Source: Candidatus Nezhaarchaeales archaeon (GTDB lineage: Archaea; Thermoproteota; Methanomethylicia; Nezhaarchaeales; JAWCJE01). From it: a stretch of DNA of 59,895 bases. The stretch's first letter is position 1. Each line of letters begins with the position of its first letter. Where the stretch lies: NCBI GenBank assembly GCA_038853715.1, contig JAWCJE010000011.1, forward strand, positions 1-59,895, read 5' to 3'. The position numbers and the translations under genes were made by a program. Of this stretch, positions 41,508 to 48,482 are shown in pieces. Under the pieces are notes generated by a model, which saw only the letters and a program-made list of their open reading frames with translations, was not told the origin of the DNA and did not search any database.

Positions 41508-42629
41508 TTATAAGGCTCCAAACCTACGGTTCCAAGATTCGTATGCGGCTATCATATCCCGCGATATGCTCGGATTCCTTTTACCTAGTATTTCCTCGAA
41601 GTCCTTCATGGTTATTTTGCGGGGTTTAGCATCCTCAACGTTCTTCTCGAAGAGCTCGCTAACCACTTTTATCTGTACTTCTTGGCATAGGCTAGCTATA
41701 TCGCTACCACTATAACCATCCGTAGCTATCGCTAACCCCTCCAGCGATACGTCGTCCGCTAGATCAAGGTTTCTTAGGTAGAGCTTTAACATCTCTAACC
41801 GTGCCTCGTAGCTCGGCGGAGGGATATAGATCCTTCTCTGGAACCTCCTAAGGAAGGCTTCATCCAAGCTCCAAGGCTTATTAGTCGCCCCTATCACGTA
41901 TACGAACTCGTTCTTACCCTTATTTAAAACGCCGTCCATCTCTTTTAGAAACTGGTTTCTAACCCTAACCTCACTACCCATCTCCTCTCTTCTAATACCT
42001 ATAAGCGAATCAACCTCGTCGATGAATATTATCGCCGGACATCCATTATTAGCGCTCTGCCTAGCCGCATTAAATAGGGCCGCTACGTTTTTTTCAGCCT
42101 CTCCAAGCCACTTCGACATTATCGAAGCGGCGTCAACACTCAAAAACTCCGCATCTATCTCGGAGCATACAGCCGCCGCTAGCAATGTTTTACCGCATCC
42201 AGGGGGTCCGTAGAATAGGATTCCTTTAGGCCATCCGAGCGGGAATAACTCAGGCCTCTTAACAGGGTATACGAGGCTCTCCATTATGGCTTTTTTAGCC
42301 TCTTGAAGGTCCGCTACGTCCTCCCATTTAACGCTGGGCTTCTCCTTAACCACGAACCTATCGGCTTCAACGCCTACTCCACCCTCCTGAACACTGCTAC
42401 TAGCTGCCCGGCTCTGAAGGTATTTAACCCTCTCCTGGTACTCAGTAGCTCTTTGCAGGTATACTCTCCTACCTGAGAAGTCGGGGTATAGTTGTGAAAG
42501 CTTAAGGAGGATTTCAACGGCCCTTTGATACTTGGAAATGGCAAAGCCCTTAACGCCGCGTTGATCCAGCTCTATAGCTTCCTTCGCGTATTTAGCGGCT
42601 AACTCCTCCAGCCCTTTAACCGTCTCCAA
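41508..42629 (-). CDS. cdvC: CdvC (Vps4-like AAA ATPase)
   Basis: The protein has an N-terminal MIT domain (residues about 5-75; KYAKEAIELDQRGVKGFAIS) and a Vps4-type AAA domain with Walker A GPPGCGKTLLAA near residue 140 and Walker B IIFIDEVDSL near residue 200. It extracts ESCRT-III (CdvB) subunits from the division ring in the cytoplasm, binding their MIM2 tails through the MIT domain. It lies 44 bases downstream of cdvB, and the intervening DNA has a perfect hairpin. The start is TTG 42629, with GGGGTG upstream. At 373 residues it is full length. Confidence 0.95.
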   Translation of the reverse strand: METVKGLEELAAKYAKEAIELDQRGVKGFAISKYQRAVEILLKLSQLYPDFSGRRVYLQRATEYQERVKYLQSRAASSSVQEGGVGVEADRFVVKEKPSVKWEDVADLQEAKKAIMESLVYPVKRPELFPLGWPKGILFYGPPGCGKTLLAAAVCSEIDAEFLSVDAASIMSKWLGEAEKNVAALFNAARQSANNGCPAIIFIDEVDSLIGIRREEMGSEVRVRNQFLKEMDGVLNKGKNEFVYVIGATNKPWSLDEAFLRRFQRRIYIPPPSYEARLEMLKLYLRNLDLADDVSLEGLAIATDGYSGSDIASLCQEVQIKVVSELFEKNVEDAKPRKITMKDFEEILGKRNPSISRDMIAAYESWNRRFGAL

Positions 42630-42673: not shown

Positions 42674-43471
42674 TTAGTCGATGGCTATTCTTCCCTCATC
42701 CTTTAGCTTCATTATTAGCTCCTTCACTGTTCCTAGCGGTAGCCCCAACTCCTTCGAGCATCGAGCTAGGTTAATAGTACCTCCAACCATCTTAATGTAG
42801 TTGTAAACCTTATCTTCCAGATCTTTCTCAACCTTAACCTTTAAGTCCTCCCCTCCAAGGGCTACGGGTACTGCTACGGGCTCCGGGGCTTTAGCCTCCT
42901 GTTTAAGGTTCACCGGGATTTCAGGGAAGTTCTCCTGTACTTTTTGCTCGGCTATGGTTGATGCTTCGCTTAAAACCCTTTGAGCTTCCGGGTCTATTAC
43001 CTCCAAGTTTACTAGTTGCGTAGGCGCATTAACTTCTACTAGGGTTGCGCTTAACTCCTTATTTATGCCGTTAAGCTCATGAGCTACTTCGGGGGCGATC
43101 GTGGCGAGCTGCTTGCCTACGCCGTGTATGATGCTCATTATGGGTTTAAGCTGGATCATTACGTCGCCGAGCTCCTCAACCGTTTGAAGCCTTAAAGCCG
43201 CTTGCTCTAAGGCTAGCTCAGCGGTTAGTACGGCTTTAGCCATCCTCCTTACTTCGGCGCATTCGTTCGCGTATATGGAGGCTCTATCCACGTCCTTAGA
43301 TAGGTAAGCCGCTACACACTTATCAAACAACTCCTTATCGCGCTGCTGCATTTTAGCGGAAACCTGTTTTAGCTTATTAAGCTGCGTATTAAGCCTATAG
43401 AGGGTAAGCTCTATCTTCTCCTTCATAGGCTTACTATGTATACGGAGTTTCTCGCTAATCCTAGCCAACAT
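42674..43471 (-). CDS. cdvB: CdvB (ESCRT-III with C-terminal winged helix)
   Basis: The protein is an ESCRT-III homolog with an N-terminal helical core (LYRLNTQLNKLKQVSAKMQQ onward), a MIM2 motif FPEIPVNLKQ (near residue 190) that binds CdvC, and a C-terminal winged helix (about 220-265; IKMVGGTINLARCSKELGL) that binds CdvA. It assembles into the division ring at the membrane. A frame starting at 43507 exists, but ATG 43471 lies 6 bases after a perfect GGAGGTG and is preferred, giving a short overlap with the CdvA stop (43461). It shares a 108-base identical stretch with the second ESCRT-III paralog. Confidence 0.95.
   Translation of the reverse strand: MLARISEKLRIHSKPMKEKIELTLYRLNTQLNKLKQVSAKMQQRDKELFDKCVAAYLSKDVDRASIYANECAEVRRMAKAVLTAELALEQAALRLQTVEELGDVMIQLKPIMSIIHGVGKQLATIAPEVAHELNGINKELSATLVEVNAPTQLVNLEVIDPEAQRVLSEASTIAEQKVQENFPEIPVNLKQEAKAPEPVAVPVALGGEDLKVKVEKDLEDKVYNYIKMVGGTINLARCSKELGLPLGTVKELIMKLKDEGRIAID
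43236..43343. repeat. 108-base repeat, copy 1 (inside cdvB)
   Basis: Bases 43236-43343 are identical to 44685-44792 in the other ESCRT-III paralog, ending at a mismatch on each side. The encoded residues are DKELFDKCVAAYLSKDVDRA and the following YANECAEVRRMAK region. Surrounding sequence is diverged. The pattern suggests gene conversion. Confidence 0.9.
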
Positions 43472-44297
43472 GCGTTGCACCTCCGCCGCGTTCAGCCTCC
43501 TCATCAACTATTTTAACGTGTAAAACCTCCCGCTTCTCTACCGGAGCTACCTGTTGCTGTGAAGCTACCTGCTGCGTTGAAGCCTGCCCTACTGGGGCTA
43601 CTTGAGGCGGGCTTACATGTTGAGCCTCCCTACCTACCTCTTCGCTAAGTACTGAAGGCGTTTTCTCTTCTATTACTAGCGGCGGGCGGGGTTCGGGTTT
43701 TTTAAGGCTTAGTAGCTCGTTAAGATGCGCCTCTAAATCCTTCTTCTCCGCTTTTACGCGGCTTAAGCCTTGGATAAGGTGTTCAACCGAAACTTTATAG
43801 GTGGCTTCACTTATTTGGTTAGCCCTATGAAGCATTTTCGTAGCGGCTAAAATACGCTCTAAGTCCTTTAACCTGTAGTCAAGCTCTAAAGCCTTCTTCT
43901 TTAAGCCTTCAACAACGTCCTTCTTCTTATTCTCAAGCTCACTCATTACGGATTCATGGCTTTTACGTAGTTCATCGTAAATATCCTTAGTTATTTCACC
44001 GGCTTCAAGTAGTTCATCGAGCGCTATAAGCCTCTGCTGAACAGCCTCAGCCTCCCTATGGAATTCTTCAACCTCAACCCTCCAGCTAGGTATATTAACC
44101 ACGGCATTATCCCCGATAGCCACCTGGCTACACGGTATGGTTACAAACTCCCCGTTTCCAAGTTCAACCTCTACGGCTTTAACCCTGTTCTTACTATCCG
44201 CCATGAACCCGACCACCCAACCCATATGCCTTCCATATATGTCCTTCAAGGGTTTACCTATGTAGGCCTCCATAACCTCGATGGGGCTAGGCTCCAT
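43461..44297 (-). CDS. cdvA: CdvA (PRC-barrel coiled-coil division protein)
   Basis: The protein begins with a PRC-barrel-like domain (residues about 10-70; IGKPLKDIYGRHMGWVVGFM), then a long coiled coil (about 75-200), then a Pro/Gln-rich linker, and a C-terminal peptide REVLHVKIVDEEA near residue 260 that resembles the CdvB-binding E3B motif. CdvA marks the division site at the membrane and recruits CdvB through its winged helix. The start has GAGGTGG nearby. The gene lies 20 bases after the second ESCRT-III paralog. The Gln/Val/Ala-rich tail is low complexity. Confidence 0.93.
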   Translation of the reverse strand: MEPSPIEVMEAYIGKPLKDIYGRHMGWVVGFMADSKNRVKAVEVELGNGEFVTIPCSQVAIGDNAVVNIPSWRVEVEEFHREAEAVQQRLIALDELLEAGEITKDIYDELRKSHESVMSELENKKKDVVEGLKKKALELDYRLKDLERILAATKMLHRANQISEATYKVSVEHLIQGLSRVKAEKKDLEAHLNELLSLKKPEPRPPLVIEEKTPSVLSEEVGREAQHVSPPQVAPVGQASTQQVASQQQVAPVEKREVLHVKIVDEEAERGGGATHVG

Positions 44298-44317: not shown

Positions 44318-44968
44318 TTAAGACCCCTTAACCTTCATTCCCCCGGCCGGGGTCACGGTTGGTAGCTCGGGGAACTTCTCCTTCATCTGTTGCTCCGCTA
44401 ATAGGCTCGCTTCGCTTAGGATCTTCTGTGCCTCCTCGCTCGGGGTGATGGAGGTTACGCTTATCCCTGTGGCTTCACCCGTTTCCACCATTAGGCTGTT
44501 TAAGCTCTCATCGATCTGGCTTAGGTTAAACGCTACTTCAGGCATTACTCCAGCTATACTACTTTTAACGTCCCGTACAACCCTAGCTACTAACGCCATT
44601 TGAAGCGCCGCTTCACCTAGGTCTTCCACTGTTTGAAGCCTTAAAACCACCTGTTCAAGGGCTAGCTGGCTTCTAAGTAGTACCTTAGCCATCCTCCTTA
44701 CTTCGGCGCATTCGTTCGCGTATATGGAGGCTCTATCCACGTCCTTAGATAGGTAAGCCGCTACACACTTATCAAACAACTCCTTATCGCGCGCTTGAAG
44801 CCTATTGGCGGTCTGCTTAAGCCTTTCGCTTTGAAACTGTAACCTATAAAGTATAGCGTTAATCCTCTCCTTTAACGGAGCTTGCCTACGTAACGAAATA
44901 TGGGGGAGGAAACCCTCCCCACCCTCCCACTTCTTAATCATCTTATGTACGCTATTCACGGTTTTCAC
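44318..44968 (-). CDS. second ESCRT-III paralog (CdvB-like, no winged helix)
   Basis: This 216-residue ESCRT-III protein has the same helical core as CdvB and a MIM2-like FPELPTVTP near the C-terminus, but it lacks the winged helix. It therefore cannot bind CdvA directly, like the CdvB1/CdvB2 paralogs of Sulfolobales, and would be recruited by CdvB. It is placed before cdvA in the operon. It starts at GTG 44968, overlapping the stop of the RHH-coiled-coil gene by four bases, a sign of coupled translation. It shares 108 identical bases with cdvB. Confidence 0.92.
   Translation of the reverse strand: MKTVNSVHKMIKKWEGGEGFLPHISLRRQAPLKERINAILYRLQFQSERLKQTANRLQARDKELFDKCVAAYLSKDVDRASIYANECAEVRRMAKVLLRSQLALEQVVLRLQTVEDLGEAALQMALVARVVRDVKSSIAGVMPEVAFNLSQIDESLNSLMVETGEATGISVTSITPSEEAQKILSEASLLAEQQMKEKFPELPTVTPAGGMKVKGS
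44685..44792. repeat. 108-base repeat, copy 2 (inside second ESCRT-III gene)
   Basis: Identical to 43236-43343 in cdvB, offset 1449 bases. Flanking paralog sequence is diverged. Confidence 0.9.
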
Positions 44969-45342
44969 CTTGAAAGTTGACGCTGGTAGAGGGTGAAGGC
45001 GGTTTCAAGCGCCACCTTTACGGCGCCTGAGCTCTTCTTCAGCTTAGCCACTAGCGCTGGGTTCACGTGTTGAATTACGTCTTCAAAGCTAACCATCCTT
45101 AGGCTTACGGAGCTCCTAGCTTGAAGCTCGCTTTTCAGCCTCTCCACTTCACTTCTAAGTTTTTCAGCCTCGCTTCTCTCCTGGTTTACAGCCTCCTTTA
45201 GGGATTCCACTTCAACCCAAGCCTTTATAGCCTCGGTTATCGCCTTCCTCTTCGAGTCGCTTCCACCTCCGTACTTCTCAGTAGCTTTAGCCTCTAGTAT
45301 CTCGTTAACGTCCTCCGGTATCCTCATTAACAATATGGGCAT
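44965..45342 (-). CDS. RHH-like coiled-coil protein, first gene of the cdv operon
   Basis: The 125-residue protein has an N-terminal ribbon-helix-helix-like segment (MRIPEDVNEILEAKA, then KRKAITEAIKAWV), a coiled coil of Glu/Lys/Arg (residues about 45-78) and a C-terminal helical part. It overlaps the following ESCRT-III gene by four bases (44965-44968), so it is translationally coupled to the division operon. RHH proteins such as aCcr1 repress cdvA in Sulfolobales, so it could be an autoregulator or a structural partner of the ring. No family that I know has this architecture beside Cdv genes. Confidence 0.68.
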   Translation of the reverse strand: MPILLMRIPEDVNEILEAKATEKYGGGSDSKRKAITEAIKAWVEVESLKEAVNQERSEAEKLRSEVERLKSELQARSSVSLRMVSFEDVIQHVNPALVAKLKKSSGAVKVALETAFTLYQRQLSR

Positions 45343-45436
45343 TCATACCACGCCTAAACTACTCCGGGTCGGATGAAGCTTAATAAGCCCTCAAAATTTA
45401 CTGGCGTAAAATATACCTAGGTATTGCGTTAAAGTA

Positions 45437-45527
45437 GAACCCTTTAGATAGGGTTCATGCGGCGTTAAGCGCGCCGCCCATTAAGAGTTTACAAATTCTA
45501 GCCCGCGGCTGCCCGCTATTACGCGGG
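45437..45527. other. three consecutive hairpins upstream of the cdv operon
   Basis: Perfect arms are GAACCCT/AGGGTTC (45437-45443, 45450-45456), GCGGCG/CGCCGC (45459-45464, 45472-45477) and CCCGC/GCGGG (45512-45516, 45523-45527). The last straddles the stop codon of the upstream hypothetical gene. They could form a structured RNA, a bidirectional regulatory site or terminator hairpins for the upstream gene. Confidence 0.4.
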
Positions 45528-46202
45528 AAGCTTTAACGCTACGACGGCGTCAAGCTCATGAATATTCCTCTCCCTACAGTTACATATAGCCGTCCAGGAA
45601 ATCGTTTTAGTTATCTCGCCCCGTCCAAGCTCTTTTTCAAGTTTTAAAGCGTAGGCTTCAAAATCCTCCTCCCGTAGCGGGATTGAGGCTACGCAGCCAC
45701 ACTTCATCCTTATTAGTAGTTGACGCCAGTTCTCAGGGCTTCTAAAGGGTTTACCGGTTAATACTTCACCGTTATCGTGAAAAATAACCTTATACTTATC
45801 GGTTTCAACCTTCACCGGTAGCTTAAGAAGCTCCTTCCAAAACGCTTCAACCTCGTTTAGTAGCTTCCGCTTATACTCTTCAACCTCCCTCCTCGCCTGA
45901 TCAAGCTTCATCCTCCAATCCTCCCCTTTCTTACCGCACTCGAAAAACTTAACGCGTCTTTCACCGTAACTTACCTTAAGGCCTAGATCCTCATGGGGCT
46001 CGTAGGTTATCGCGTTCTTAACGGCGAGAACAAAGTAGCTCCCATCATCCTTCCTGTAGCTAGCTACCTCCCCGAACCTAATGGGCTCCTTAACGTACGG
46101 TATTTGACCTTCCACGCTTTCTACGAGTAGCTCTACGCCCTCCCATGTTTTTACGCCTTTAAGCCTACAGATGAAGCCTTGAAACAGCCGGCTTAACGAC
46201 AT
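45519..46202 (-). CDS. hypothetical protein with paired CxC motifs
   Basis: The 227-residue protein is soluble, with a central Glu/Lys/Arg coiled coil (residues about 95-125). It has two CxC motifs: KCGCVASIP near residue 168 and ICNCRERN near residue 210. The four cysteines may bind a metal ion. The domain order does not match a family that I recognise. The stop codon lies 177 bases before the start of the cdv operon on the same strand. Hairpins in between make co-transcription doubtful. Confidence 0.55.
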   Translation of the reverse strand: MSLSRLFQGFICRLKGVKTWEGVELLVESVEGQIPYVKEPIRFGEVASYRKDDGSYFVLAVKNAITYEPHEDLGLKVSYGERRVKFFECGKKGEDWRMKLDQARREVEEYKRKLLNEVEAFWKELLKLPVKVETDKYKVIFHDNGEVLTGKPFRSPENWRQLLIRMKCGCVASIPLREEDFEAYALKLEKELGRGEITKTISWTAICNCRERNIHELDAVVALKLPA

Positions 46203-47037
46203 ACCTACACCCTCTACGCGTTAAAGCGAACCACCCACCCATAAACGATGCGGGGTTACCGCTCACATATTTGTTAAATAGGTAGTCACTTAACCCCTCC
46301 CACCGTTTAACTCGACGTGGAGGAACCCTCCATCAGCCGCCGCTACCCCTAGCTTCCTACTCCGGCCCTTCAGCTTAACGCGATTAATGCTTAAGGTAGG
46401 CTTAGAAGCAGGCCTTAATCCTCCCCTTTAATTCTCCGATCCTCCTACCATACTTCTCCTTAAGCCCCCTAACGTTTTCCATGCTTCAGCCTTAAACCTA
46501 CCTACATATCGCCTCCGAGTAATGCGCCTCGACCTCCATACCTCCCTGGTATACGTCTTCGTAAGGGCCTAGCTCTTCACTATTATTTCCTCGCGGAGAC
46601 TGATTTCAGCATACAACGACTTAACATCCTCCAGTACGTTGACTTCTCTAAATCGTTTAAGAAGCGACCAGTCAACCACTCCCTAAGTTGCTCGTGATAA
46701 AGCGGTAACTCGTTGGATCAAGGAGACGCATACGCCTAGACCTACTATTAAAACGCATTAAGATGCTATTGAATTCAAACTGATAAAACAGCTTTGTGGC
46801 TTAATTACGTACTCCTCATCAATCCCACATTAAATACCTCACGTTAACTCATGTAGAGTTAATGTAAAGCTAGGAATTAAGCCACAGAGCAATAAAACCC
46901 TTACTCCTTGTTTAAACGTGTTTAGCCCTTCGGTTAAAATTTCGTAAACCCGGTAAACAGCCGAAGATAGGCAATAGTCCGCTGGAGCAAATTGATGAGG
47001 AAAGAATAGAATCGATTTTCCTAAATTTAGTAGGAGG
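46203..47037. other. long gap with decayed coding remnants and a MITE-like element
   Basis: No intact gene lies in these 835 bases. On the minus strand about 46300-46700, short open stretches in different frames look like decayed protein: RSRKLGVAAADGGFLHVEL resembles the N-terminal DGS/DGG region of NurA nucleases, and others have EISLREEIIVKS and GPYEDVYQGGMEVEAHYSE. Stops and shifts separate them. A 102-bp inverted-repeat element is at 46790-46891. Confidence 0.35.
46790..46891. mobile_element. MITE-like inverted-repeat element with 7-bp flanking repeat
   Basis: Arms 46791-46806 and 46875-46890 are complementary over 16 bases with one G-T pair (GCTTTGTGGCTTAATT and AATTAAGCCACAGAGC). An inner hairpin TTAACTC-ATGTA-GAGTTAA lies at 46844-46862. 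ATAAAAC occurs directly outside each end (46783-46789 and 46892-46898), like a target-site duplication. No coding frame is inside. Confidence 0.5.
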
Positions 47038-47547
47038 TTAGCGCGCTTTAAGGCTTACGATGGTTACATCTCCATGCCTAACTGCTTCAAGCCCCCCCTC
47101 AACGGCTAACCCTATTATAAGCTCCGATATTGCCTGCGTAGCCCCGTCGTCGGCGCTTGGAGTAATGATGAGCCTCGCGCCTTCCTTCGAAATCCAAGGT
47201 ACCTTTCCGGCTAAAACCTCGGCAACCTCGCCGACGTCAATGTTTAAAGCGCGTAAAGCGCGTCCAATACGCTCTCCTACCTTCCTCCACTTTTCCACTT
47301 CGTACCTACCGGATAGGAGAGCCTCCAGCGGGACTATGATCGGCGTGAAGGGGGTTAACCCTGAAAGTAGTTTCTGCTCTATTAGTACGCGCGGCGCGTA
47401 TAAACCGACCCTCTCAACCTCAGCGGCTGAGGTGAAAAGCTCAGCTAGGTAGGAGGATATTTTAGTCCCCCTCCTCTTAATGGCTTCAGTTATACGTTTA
47501 ACCGCGTCCTCCCTAACCGCTAGGCTTTTCCTCTTTTGCCTCGACAA
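47038..47547 (-). CDS. RHH-like N-terminal protein, paired gene 2
   Basis: The 169-residue protein has a basic, RHH-like N-terminus (REDAVKRITEAIKRRGTKI) and a C-terminal alpha/beta region ending in LIITPSADDGATQAISELII. It overlaps the upstream gene (47513-48091) by 35 bases, so the two are probably made together. Its C-terminal half resembles that of the partner in pattern (a hydrophobic strand, a long helix, then a short strand), so the pair may be diverged duplicates. Role is unknown; a two-subunit DNA-binding regulator is one possibility. Confidence 0.55.
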   Translation of the reverse strand: MSRQKRKSLAVREDAVKRITEAIKRRGTKISSYLAELFTSAAEVERVGLYAPRVLIEQKLLSGLTPFTPIIVPLEALLSGRYEVEKWRKVGERIGRALRALNIDVGEVAEVLAGKVPWISKEGARLIITPSADDGATQAISELIIGLAVEGGLEAVRHGDVTIVSLKAR

Positions 47548-48091
47548 CTATAACCCCCTCATCAATGTGGGTCCTTAAAACATTAAACCCTATCGAGGTT
47601 AAAAGGGAAGTTACAGCCTCAAGAGCTATAGCCGTAGCTTTAGCTGGTTGTAGGGGTGAGGAAGCTAAAACTTTTACGACGTCACCGTCAACCTTAACCT
47701 CCAACCTCATATCCCAGAGCGCTACTCCAAGGATGGAGAGGAGCGAAGACTTAAAGGAGCCATGGCTACCCCTATTTTTCAGTATGGACCCATACCAGGA
47801 GAAAACCTTCCTAACCTCGCCTTTAAGCTTAAATAAGGAACCTTCATCCATTAACTCTAGGATCTCGTAGAAGACGCGGGCCGGTAGCATCATTCCTCCA
47901 GCCCTTTTAAACTCGTTTAAAACCTCGATTTCCTCCAACGCTTTACCTATCCCGCCCATCAACCTATATCCTTTAAGGGCGTCCTTAAGCATTGCTTCAG
48001 CTAAATCCCTAACAGGTACACCCTCCCTTTCAGCTACCCTTATTAGCTCGTTAACCACGTCCTCGGAGATCGGTATAAGCCTCCTCGGCAT
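47513..48091 (-). CDS. RHH-like N-terminal protein, paired gene 1
   Basis: The 192-residue protein starts with ISEDVVNELIRVAEREGVPV, an RHH-like strand and helix, followed by an alpha-helical middle (residues about 40-110). It ends in a C-terminal alpha/beta part (VKVLASSPLQPAKATAIALE...). The start ATG 48091 lies 30-40 bases after a TATA-like box. It overlaps the second gene (47038-47547). I do not recognise a known family. Both proteins are candidates for a transcriptional or partition-like system. Confidence 0.55.
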   Translation of the reverse strand: MPRRLIPISEDVVNELIRVAEREGVPVRDLAEAMLKDALKGYRLMGGIGKALEEIEVLNEFKRAGGMMLPARVFYEILELMDEGSLFKLKGEVRKVFSWYGSILKNRGSHGSFKSSLLSILGVALWDMRLEVKVDGDVVKVLASSPLQPAKATAIALEAVTSLLTSIGFNVLRTHIDEGVIVVEAKEEKPSG

Positions 48092-48170: not shown

Positions 48171-48386
48171 CTATAATCCCCTATGCGCTTCCCTATGTTT
48201 AACCATAACCTTCAACCATAACCTGTAAACCCTGACCTTCTCGACCAGTAAACTGTAATCGCCTACACCGTCCTCACAGTACCCCCTCAACATTTCAACT
48301 TCACCCTCCAACCGCTTTAAAGTCGTCTGTAAACCTATACACTCTTGACAAGTACTATCTAAACCACGCTGCTTAATAAGCGGCAT
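48171..48386 (-). CDS. small Cys-containing coiled-coil protein
   Basis: The preferred start is the ATG at 48386, which follows GAGGAG by 7 bases; this gives 71 residues. A C-x2-C pair (STCQECIG, near residue 13) is followed by a Leu-rich coiled coil (LQTTLKRLEGEVEMLRGY). The C-terminus is basic. It could be a small zinc-binding oligomeric regulator. TATA and operator-like sites are upstream, so it is probably a real gene. Confidence 0.5.
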   Translation of the reverse strand: MPLIKQRGLDSTCQECIGLQTTLKRLEGEVEMLRGYCEDGVGDYSLLVEKVRVYRLWLKVMVKHREAHRGL

Positions 48387-48420
48387 TGAACCGCTCCTCA
48401 ATATCATTAGTAGCGCTTTA

Positions 48421-48462: not shown

Positions 48463-48482
48463 AAGAATACCTCGGTATTCTT
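48463..48482. promoter_or_regulatory. perfect dyad, probable operator
   Basis: AAGAATACC-TC-GGTATTCTT is a 9-bp-arm perfect inverted repeat centred at 48472.5. It sits about 35 bases upstream of the TATA box of the small Cys-containing gene. RHH or winged-helix dimers bind this sort of site; the paired RHH genes are close by. Confidence 0.5.

Follow-up and report, generated by a model that had tools for sequence, protein, structure and literature searches.

Transcription control of the archaeal ESCRT division machinery is known mainly from one regulator, aCcr1, an RHH protein that represses cdvA in Sulfolobales (PMC12796447; PMC7617429). Beside ftsZ, an RHH gene leading a division operon is already known: in haloarchaea and other archaea the RHH protein CdrS is co-transcribed with ftsZ2, and CdrL, a second RHH protein encoded just upstream, binds only upstream of cdrS-ftsZ2 (PMC7439475). 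Of the ESCRT division operons examined here, only the one described below shows this arrangement.

The gene in question, termed RHHcc, lies in a window (the whole stretch of DNA that was analysed, 59,895 nucleotides) from a host genome of 1.55 Mb in 30 contigs, and heads an operon of the order RHHcc-cdvB1-cdvA-cdvB-cdvC. The cdv content of its relatives, set beside PMC9723716, suggests that the host is a Thermoproteota (TACK) archaeon close to Nezhaarchaeales/Methanomethylicia. The features of the window discussed in this work are the following.

41508-42629, minus strand: cdvC, Vps4-type AAA ATPase with MIT domain (Pfam AAA, MIT and Vps4_C above cut-off; NCBIfam CdvC 6.1e-152, below cut-off)
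42674-43507, minus strand: cdvB-like ESCRT-III gene with a winged-helix-like C-terminus (NCBIfam CdvB1/B2 1.9e-47 and CdvB 2e-41, both below cut-off)
43461-44297, minus strand: cdvA (Pfam CdvA 1e-17, above cut-off)
44318-44968, minus strand: cdvB1-like ESCRT-III gene, GTG start (NCBIfam CdvB1/B2 3.3e-59, below family cut-off)
44965-45342, minus strand: RHHcc, 125 aa, ATG start (ORF and codon usage; RHH by profile; helices in a single-sequence AlphaFold2 model)
45412-45425, no strand: candidate operator, palindrome (T)ATACC-TA-GGTAT(T), over what we infer to be a promoter
45519-46202, minus strand: ORF of unknown family, 227 aa, between the RHH pair and RHHcc, coding by codon usage
47038-47547, minus strand: second gene of the RHH pair, 169 aa (same family alignment, A1, as the first)
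47513-48091, minus strand: first gene of the RHH pair, 192 aa, RHH N-terminus and probable TRAPP/V4R-like C-terminal domain (AlphaFold2, Foldseek, CopG profile match)
48171-48407, minus strand: 78-aa ORF, weakly coding, with a CxxC motif, the first ORF downstream of the second palindrome
48463-48482, no strand: second palindrome copy, AAGAATACC-TC-GGTATTCTT, upstream of the 78-aa ORF and the RHH gene pair

Several of the cdv matches fall below the curated cut-offs, as expected for a lineage distant from the reference set; the NCBIfam CdvB match in the cdvB-like product extends to residue 277.

The locus resembles that of CdrS in that a small RHH protein is encoded first, together with the gene of a cell-division polymer. 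However, CdrS goes with FtsZ2, whereas the genes linked to RHHcc are cdvB1-cdvA-cdvB-cdvC and the synteny with ftsZ2 is lacking; moreover, CdrS is short and belongs to PF01402, whereas RHHcc is nearest to RHH_6 and VapB-like proteins and adds a coiled coil and extra helices. With aCcr1 of Saccharolobus, RHHcc would share, in the model proposed below, the action of an RHH regulator on an ESCRT-III division gene, but aCcr1 is a stand-alone short RHH protein, while the RHHcc gene lies inside the operon and its product has a coiled coil. The VapB-type archaeal RHH antitoxins, which are classically autoregulatory, are the closest relatives of the RHHcc RHH domain and are likewise encoded in tight gene pairs; here, however, cdvB1 occupies the toxin-gene position after RHHcc, and a coiled coil stands in place of the antitoxin tail. 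No PIN-domain toxin gene was found beside RHHcc, its downstream neighbour being cdvB1 and its upstream neighbour the 227-aa ORF, for which neither a Pfam nor an NCBIfam match was obtained. By analogy, RHHcc would work like CdrS and aCcr1, and membership in neither group is claimed.

The RHHcc gene and its place in the operon

The RHHcc ORF is coding: of the six frames, only its own shows codon usage like that of the cdv genes, with log-odds of 0.46 bits per codon against about -0.01 to -0.33 for the other five, and the four cdv genes, at 0.33-0.44, give the range for comparison. An ORF as long as RHHcc appeared in 5 of 300 shuffles of 44901-46300. The 125-residue minus-strand gene of the initial annotation is therefore real, and so is its four-base overlap with the next ESCRT-III gene, in that the last four bases of RHHcc, GTGA (44965-44968), contain the cdvB1 GTG start; this overlap depends on the choice between two starts, since an alternative in-frame cdvB1 GTG at 44959, nine bases further on, would leave no overlap if used. 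The wording that the two were fused was wrong, and RHHcc and cdvB1 are separate genes that share four bases.

The order cdvB1-cdvA-cdvB-cdvC is kept in genomes of the same taxonomic order (G002, G004, G005 and G008) and in other families. Upstream sequence was available for 91 ESCRT-III gene starts, some of them redundant, and only the window has RHHcc there; the other tight upstream neighbours were cdvA, cdvC, ABC ATPase and Lrp-type genes and likely spurious ORFs. A full-length RHHcc homolog was found neither in 398 genomes of the phylum nor in GTDB r220 contigs, viral contigs, phages or plasmids, and none of the relatives of its RHH domain in 100 related genomes, among the matches listed, adjoined cdv genes. 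Therefore, RHHcc is a one-lineage arrangement, seen in one genome, and not a conserved Cdv component. The initial annotation had named a lack of linkage between homologs and cdv genes elsewhere as evidence against its proposal, and such a lack was found in a weak form, full-length homologs being absent and RHH-only relatives not lying near cdv. Its statement that no Cdv operon was known with this gene first holds for the cdv operons examined here, none other of which has it, and a full-text literature search, judged by title or abstract, retrieved no description of an RHH gene in a Cdv operon.

Weak matches at three further loci (L002-L004) were considered as RHHcc homologs and set aside as coiled-coil noise.

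RHH head and coiled coil of RHHcc

Scanned directly against Pfam, PHROGs and the PDB, the RHHcc N-terminus gave no match or very weak ones, none of them useful. When RHHcc was used as a query against the 398 phylum genomes, weak matches were obtained in small proteins, most of them limited to residues 3-66, and five small archaeal proteins (L119-L123) align with RHHcc in an RHH pattern, namely a short strand, then helix A following IP, a turn with glycine, and helix B ending in W. Pfam RHH_6 is matched to some degree by four of these five; two matches reach 2.7e-5 and 4.1e-7, and the second, which is the best, passes the cut-off. The profile of the five sequences, built without RHHcc although all five had been gathered using RHHcc as the query, gives RHHcc 37.7 bits (E 1.5e-10 among 2191 ORFs), whereas none of 2000 shuffled versions of residues 1-60 exceeded 10.4 bits. 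The same profile matches a chain of PDB 2k6l at 2.6e-6; the record names an uncharacterized protein, which we take to be a solved RHH-type protein. By way of this indirect profile, RHHcc matches RHH profiles over the strand-helix-helix core, with the domain placed at about residues 4-46, and the RHH-like N-terminus noted initially is borne out. Further relatives of the domain are mostly small proteins of 46-99 aa, and in four loci (L132, L138, L139 and L144) a PIN-like gene, read by eye, directly follows the RHH gene. Judged from these nearest relatives, the RHH domain of RHHcc appears to derive from the VapB-like antitoxin group.

The coiled coil that had been annotated was recovered both as heptads and as a continuous predicted helix. 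A regular heptad register spans residues 44-77 and was reached by 0.05% of shuffles (p 0.0005); the single-sequence AlphaFold2 model (mean pLDDT 72) places helices at residues 10-24, 28-76, 86-93, 95-103 and 106-124, wherein helix B runs without break into the coiled coil, to about residue 76. Residues 1-9 are non-helical and of low confidence in this monomer model, which was made without an alignment. The helical C-terminal part, residues 86-124, is without homologs, and a Foldseek search with the single-sequence model returned no significant match.

A candidate operator and the proposed regulation

A perfect palindrome, ATACCTAGGTAT, lies in the intergenic region at 45413-45424, 71-82 bp upstream of the RHHcc start, and plausibly overlaps a possible minus-strand BRE/TATA box (TATATTTTA, 45415-45407). 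The second ATACC-N2-GGTAT copy, with its arms extended, is found about 3 kb from the first, and exact sites number three in the whole 1.55 Mb genome, the third being inside a ribonucleotide reductase gene. When these two intergenic regions were dinucleotide-shuffled 5000 times, they had a palindrome with 5-base arms in common in 23 cases; because the palindrome was picked by eye before testing, this p of about 0.005 is optimistic, and both the statistic and the reading of ATACC-N2-GGTAT as a candidate operator are suggestive only. Genome-wide, the relaxed motif with two mismatches was not enriched (80 versus 75 in the control). A wider palindrome regulon was rejected, as the two-mismatch motif stands at background and the one-mismatch intergenic sites precede genes without an evident division role. 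The background level of the relaxed motif fits a narrow local circuit, of the kind seen with CdrL in haloarchaea (PMC7439475), and equally the absence of any wider function. No palindrome is shared in Hecatellales between the sequence preceding the RHH pair and that preceding cdvB1.

Two paralogous genes elsewhere in the genome (L148, G000:C1 near 185235; L151, G000:C4 near 32685) have similar promoters, with AAGACC-N2-GGTATT, a motif close to the window palindrome, 60-90 bp upstream.

We propose that RHHcc probably controls transcription of the division operon to which it belongs. Two RHHcc subunits would form an RHH dimer, in which the paired N-terminal strands read DNA and the coiled coil stabilises the dimers or couples them to one another. 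By binding ATACC-N2-GGTAT at the promoter, the dimer would repress, or tune, the operon from RHHcc to cdvC; through the short gene overlap, translation of the regulator would be coupled to that of the first ESCRT-III subunit, and the same palindrome upstream of the neighbouring RHH pair would point to a small local circuit. Dimerisation, palindrome binding, the sign of the regulation, co-transcription and a function in the cell cycle are what we infer for RHHcc. The initial annotation had left the choice between an autoregulator and a structural component. Autoregulation has more in its favour, since the likely promoter carries a palindrome that recurs 3 kb away and is otherwise almost absent from the genome; for the structural half of the claim, no supporting evidence emerged.

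Regulator-like genes recur in cdv loci, which makes the regulatory reading of RHHcc more likely. An Lrp/AsnC-type gene directly follows cdvC in eight other cdv loci, of the Bathyarchaeia type, and resembles RHHcc as a putative regulator encoded with the Cdv operon, although it differs in its fold, in its 3′ position and in being conserved in several lineages. If RHHcc does regulate its operon, the operon-encoded RHH protein and its candidate operator would correspond, on the ESCRT side, to cdrS-ftsZ2; small RHH regulators would then seem to have been recruited repeatedly by different division machineries, an idea that the recurring Lrp-type and RHH-pair genes in cdv loci make testable in other lineages.

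Alternative readings and neighbouring genes

RHHcc might instead be structural, with the RHH head on nucleoid DNA and the coiled coil on CdvA or CdvB1, and thereby tether the chromosome to the division ring. Such a link would be in keeping with the long coiled coil, with the encoding of RHHcc alongside cdvB1 and cdvA, and with a helical C-terminal part that differs from known RHH repressors. In Sulfolobus SegA/SegB couple DNA segregation to ESCRT division (PMC12557731), and CdvA is reported to form filaments that contain DNA (PMC3132758). However, we consider a tether unlikely, given that RHHcc is absent from every other Cdv-bearing genome examined, those of the same order included, and that no interaction motif was identified in it.

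The palindrome site could also belong to the neighbouring RHH pair or to another factor. It is a minor possibility that the pair (47038-48091), a tandem of genes for proteins with RHH N-termini about 2 kb upstream of RHHcc, regulates the promoter and that RHHcc is a derived passenger or co-regulator; an hhalign comparison of RHHcc with the pair found no relationship. The profile of the A1 family, to which both genes of the pair belong, has CopG as its best PDB match, a weak one (E 0.021), and single members match Pfam RHH_1 (best 1.9e-5). The AlphaFold2 model of the first protein, made with 28 sequences, reaches pLDDT 93.4; its top Foldseek matches are designed proteins, and the natural ones, with TM-scores near 0.35-0.45, are Bet3/Trs31, BcsD/CesD and the MopR sensor domain, which makes a TRAPP/V4R-like C-terminal domain in the model likely but not certain. 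For a regulatory role of the pair speak the wide distribution of its family (145 of the 398 phylum genomes, often paired), its position directly upstream of cdvB1-cdvB-cdvC in Hecatellales (L106-L108) and in G056, and the palindrome preceding its cluster in the window. Nevertheless, the pair is mostly distant from cdv in other genomes, is present in genomes of family f18 that gave no CdvB1 match, and seems to own a separate promoter region in the window.

It is improbable that RHHcc is an orphan gene, of antitoxin ancestry or from a mobile element, which came to lie before cdvB1 and plays no part in division: the VapB-like RHH domain and the lack of a homolog elsewhere agree with such an origin, but the gene resembles the cdv genes in codon usage, lies on the same strand as cdvB1 with the 4-bp overlap, has no toxin gene adjacent and retains an intact coiled coil. 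It is highly improbable that RHHcc is regulator and physical link at once, with its RHH head on DNA and its coiled-coil tail in a CdvA/CdvB1 ring, in which case ring assembly would titrate the repressor and report division status to transcription.

RHH pairs, at 47038-48091 in the window, were also located at L106:4548-5745, L107:1694-2941, L108:230-1428 and L076:4818-6015. An inverted repeat, TGTGGCTTAATT / AATTAAGCCACA, was seen by eye at 46790-46890 of the window, and the 0.8-kb stretch that holds it, without a convincing gene, is possibly a mobile-element remnant.

The Lrp/AsnC-type genes of other cdv loci lie at L067:1070-1582, L076:1284-1826, L105:7258-7797, L110:5162-5644, L164:8262-8801, L165:2329-2889, L167:298-777 and L179:1992-2519, and that of L179 overlaps the next ESCRT-III gene by 4 bp. 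In some Bathyarchaeia (L112:4080-5475, and also L111, L113 and L114), the gene of a protein of about 196 aa is directly upstream of the cdv operon and is preceded by that of a protein of about 265 aa with a weak Nse4 C-terminal match (4e-4); the two are possibly a kleisin/kite-like pair beside ESCRT division genes.
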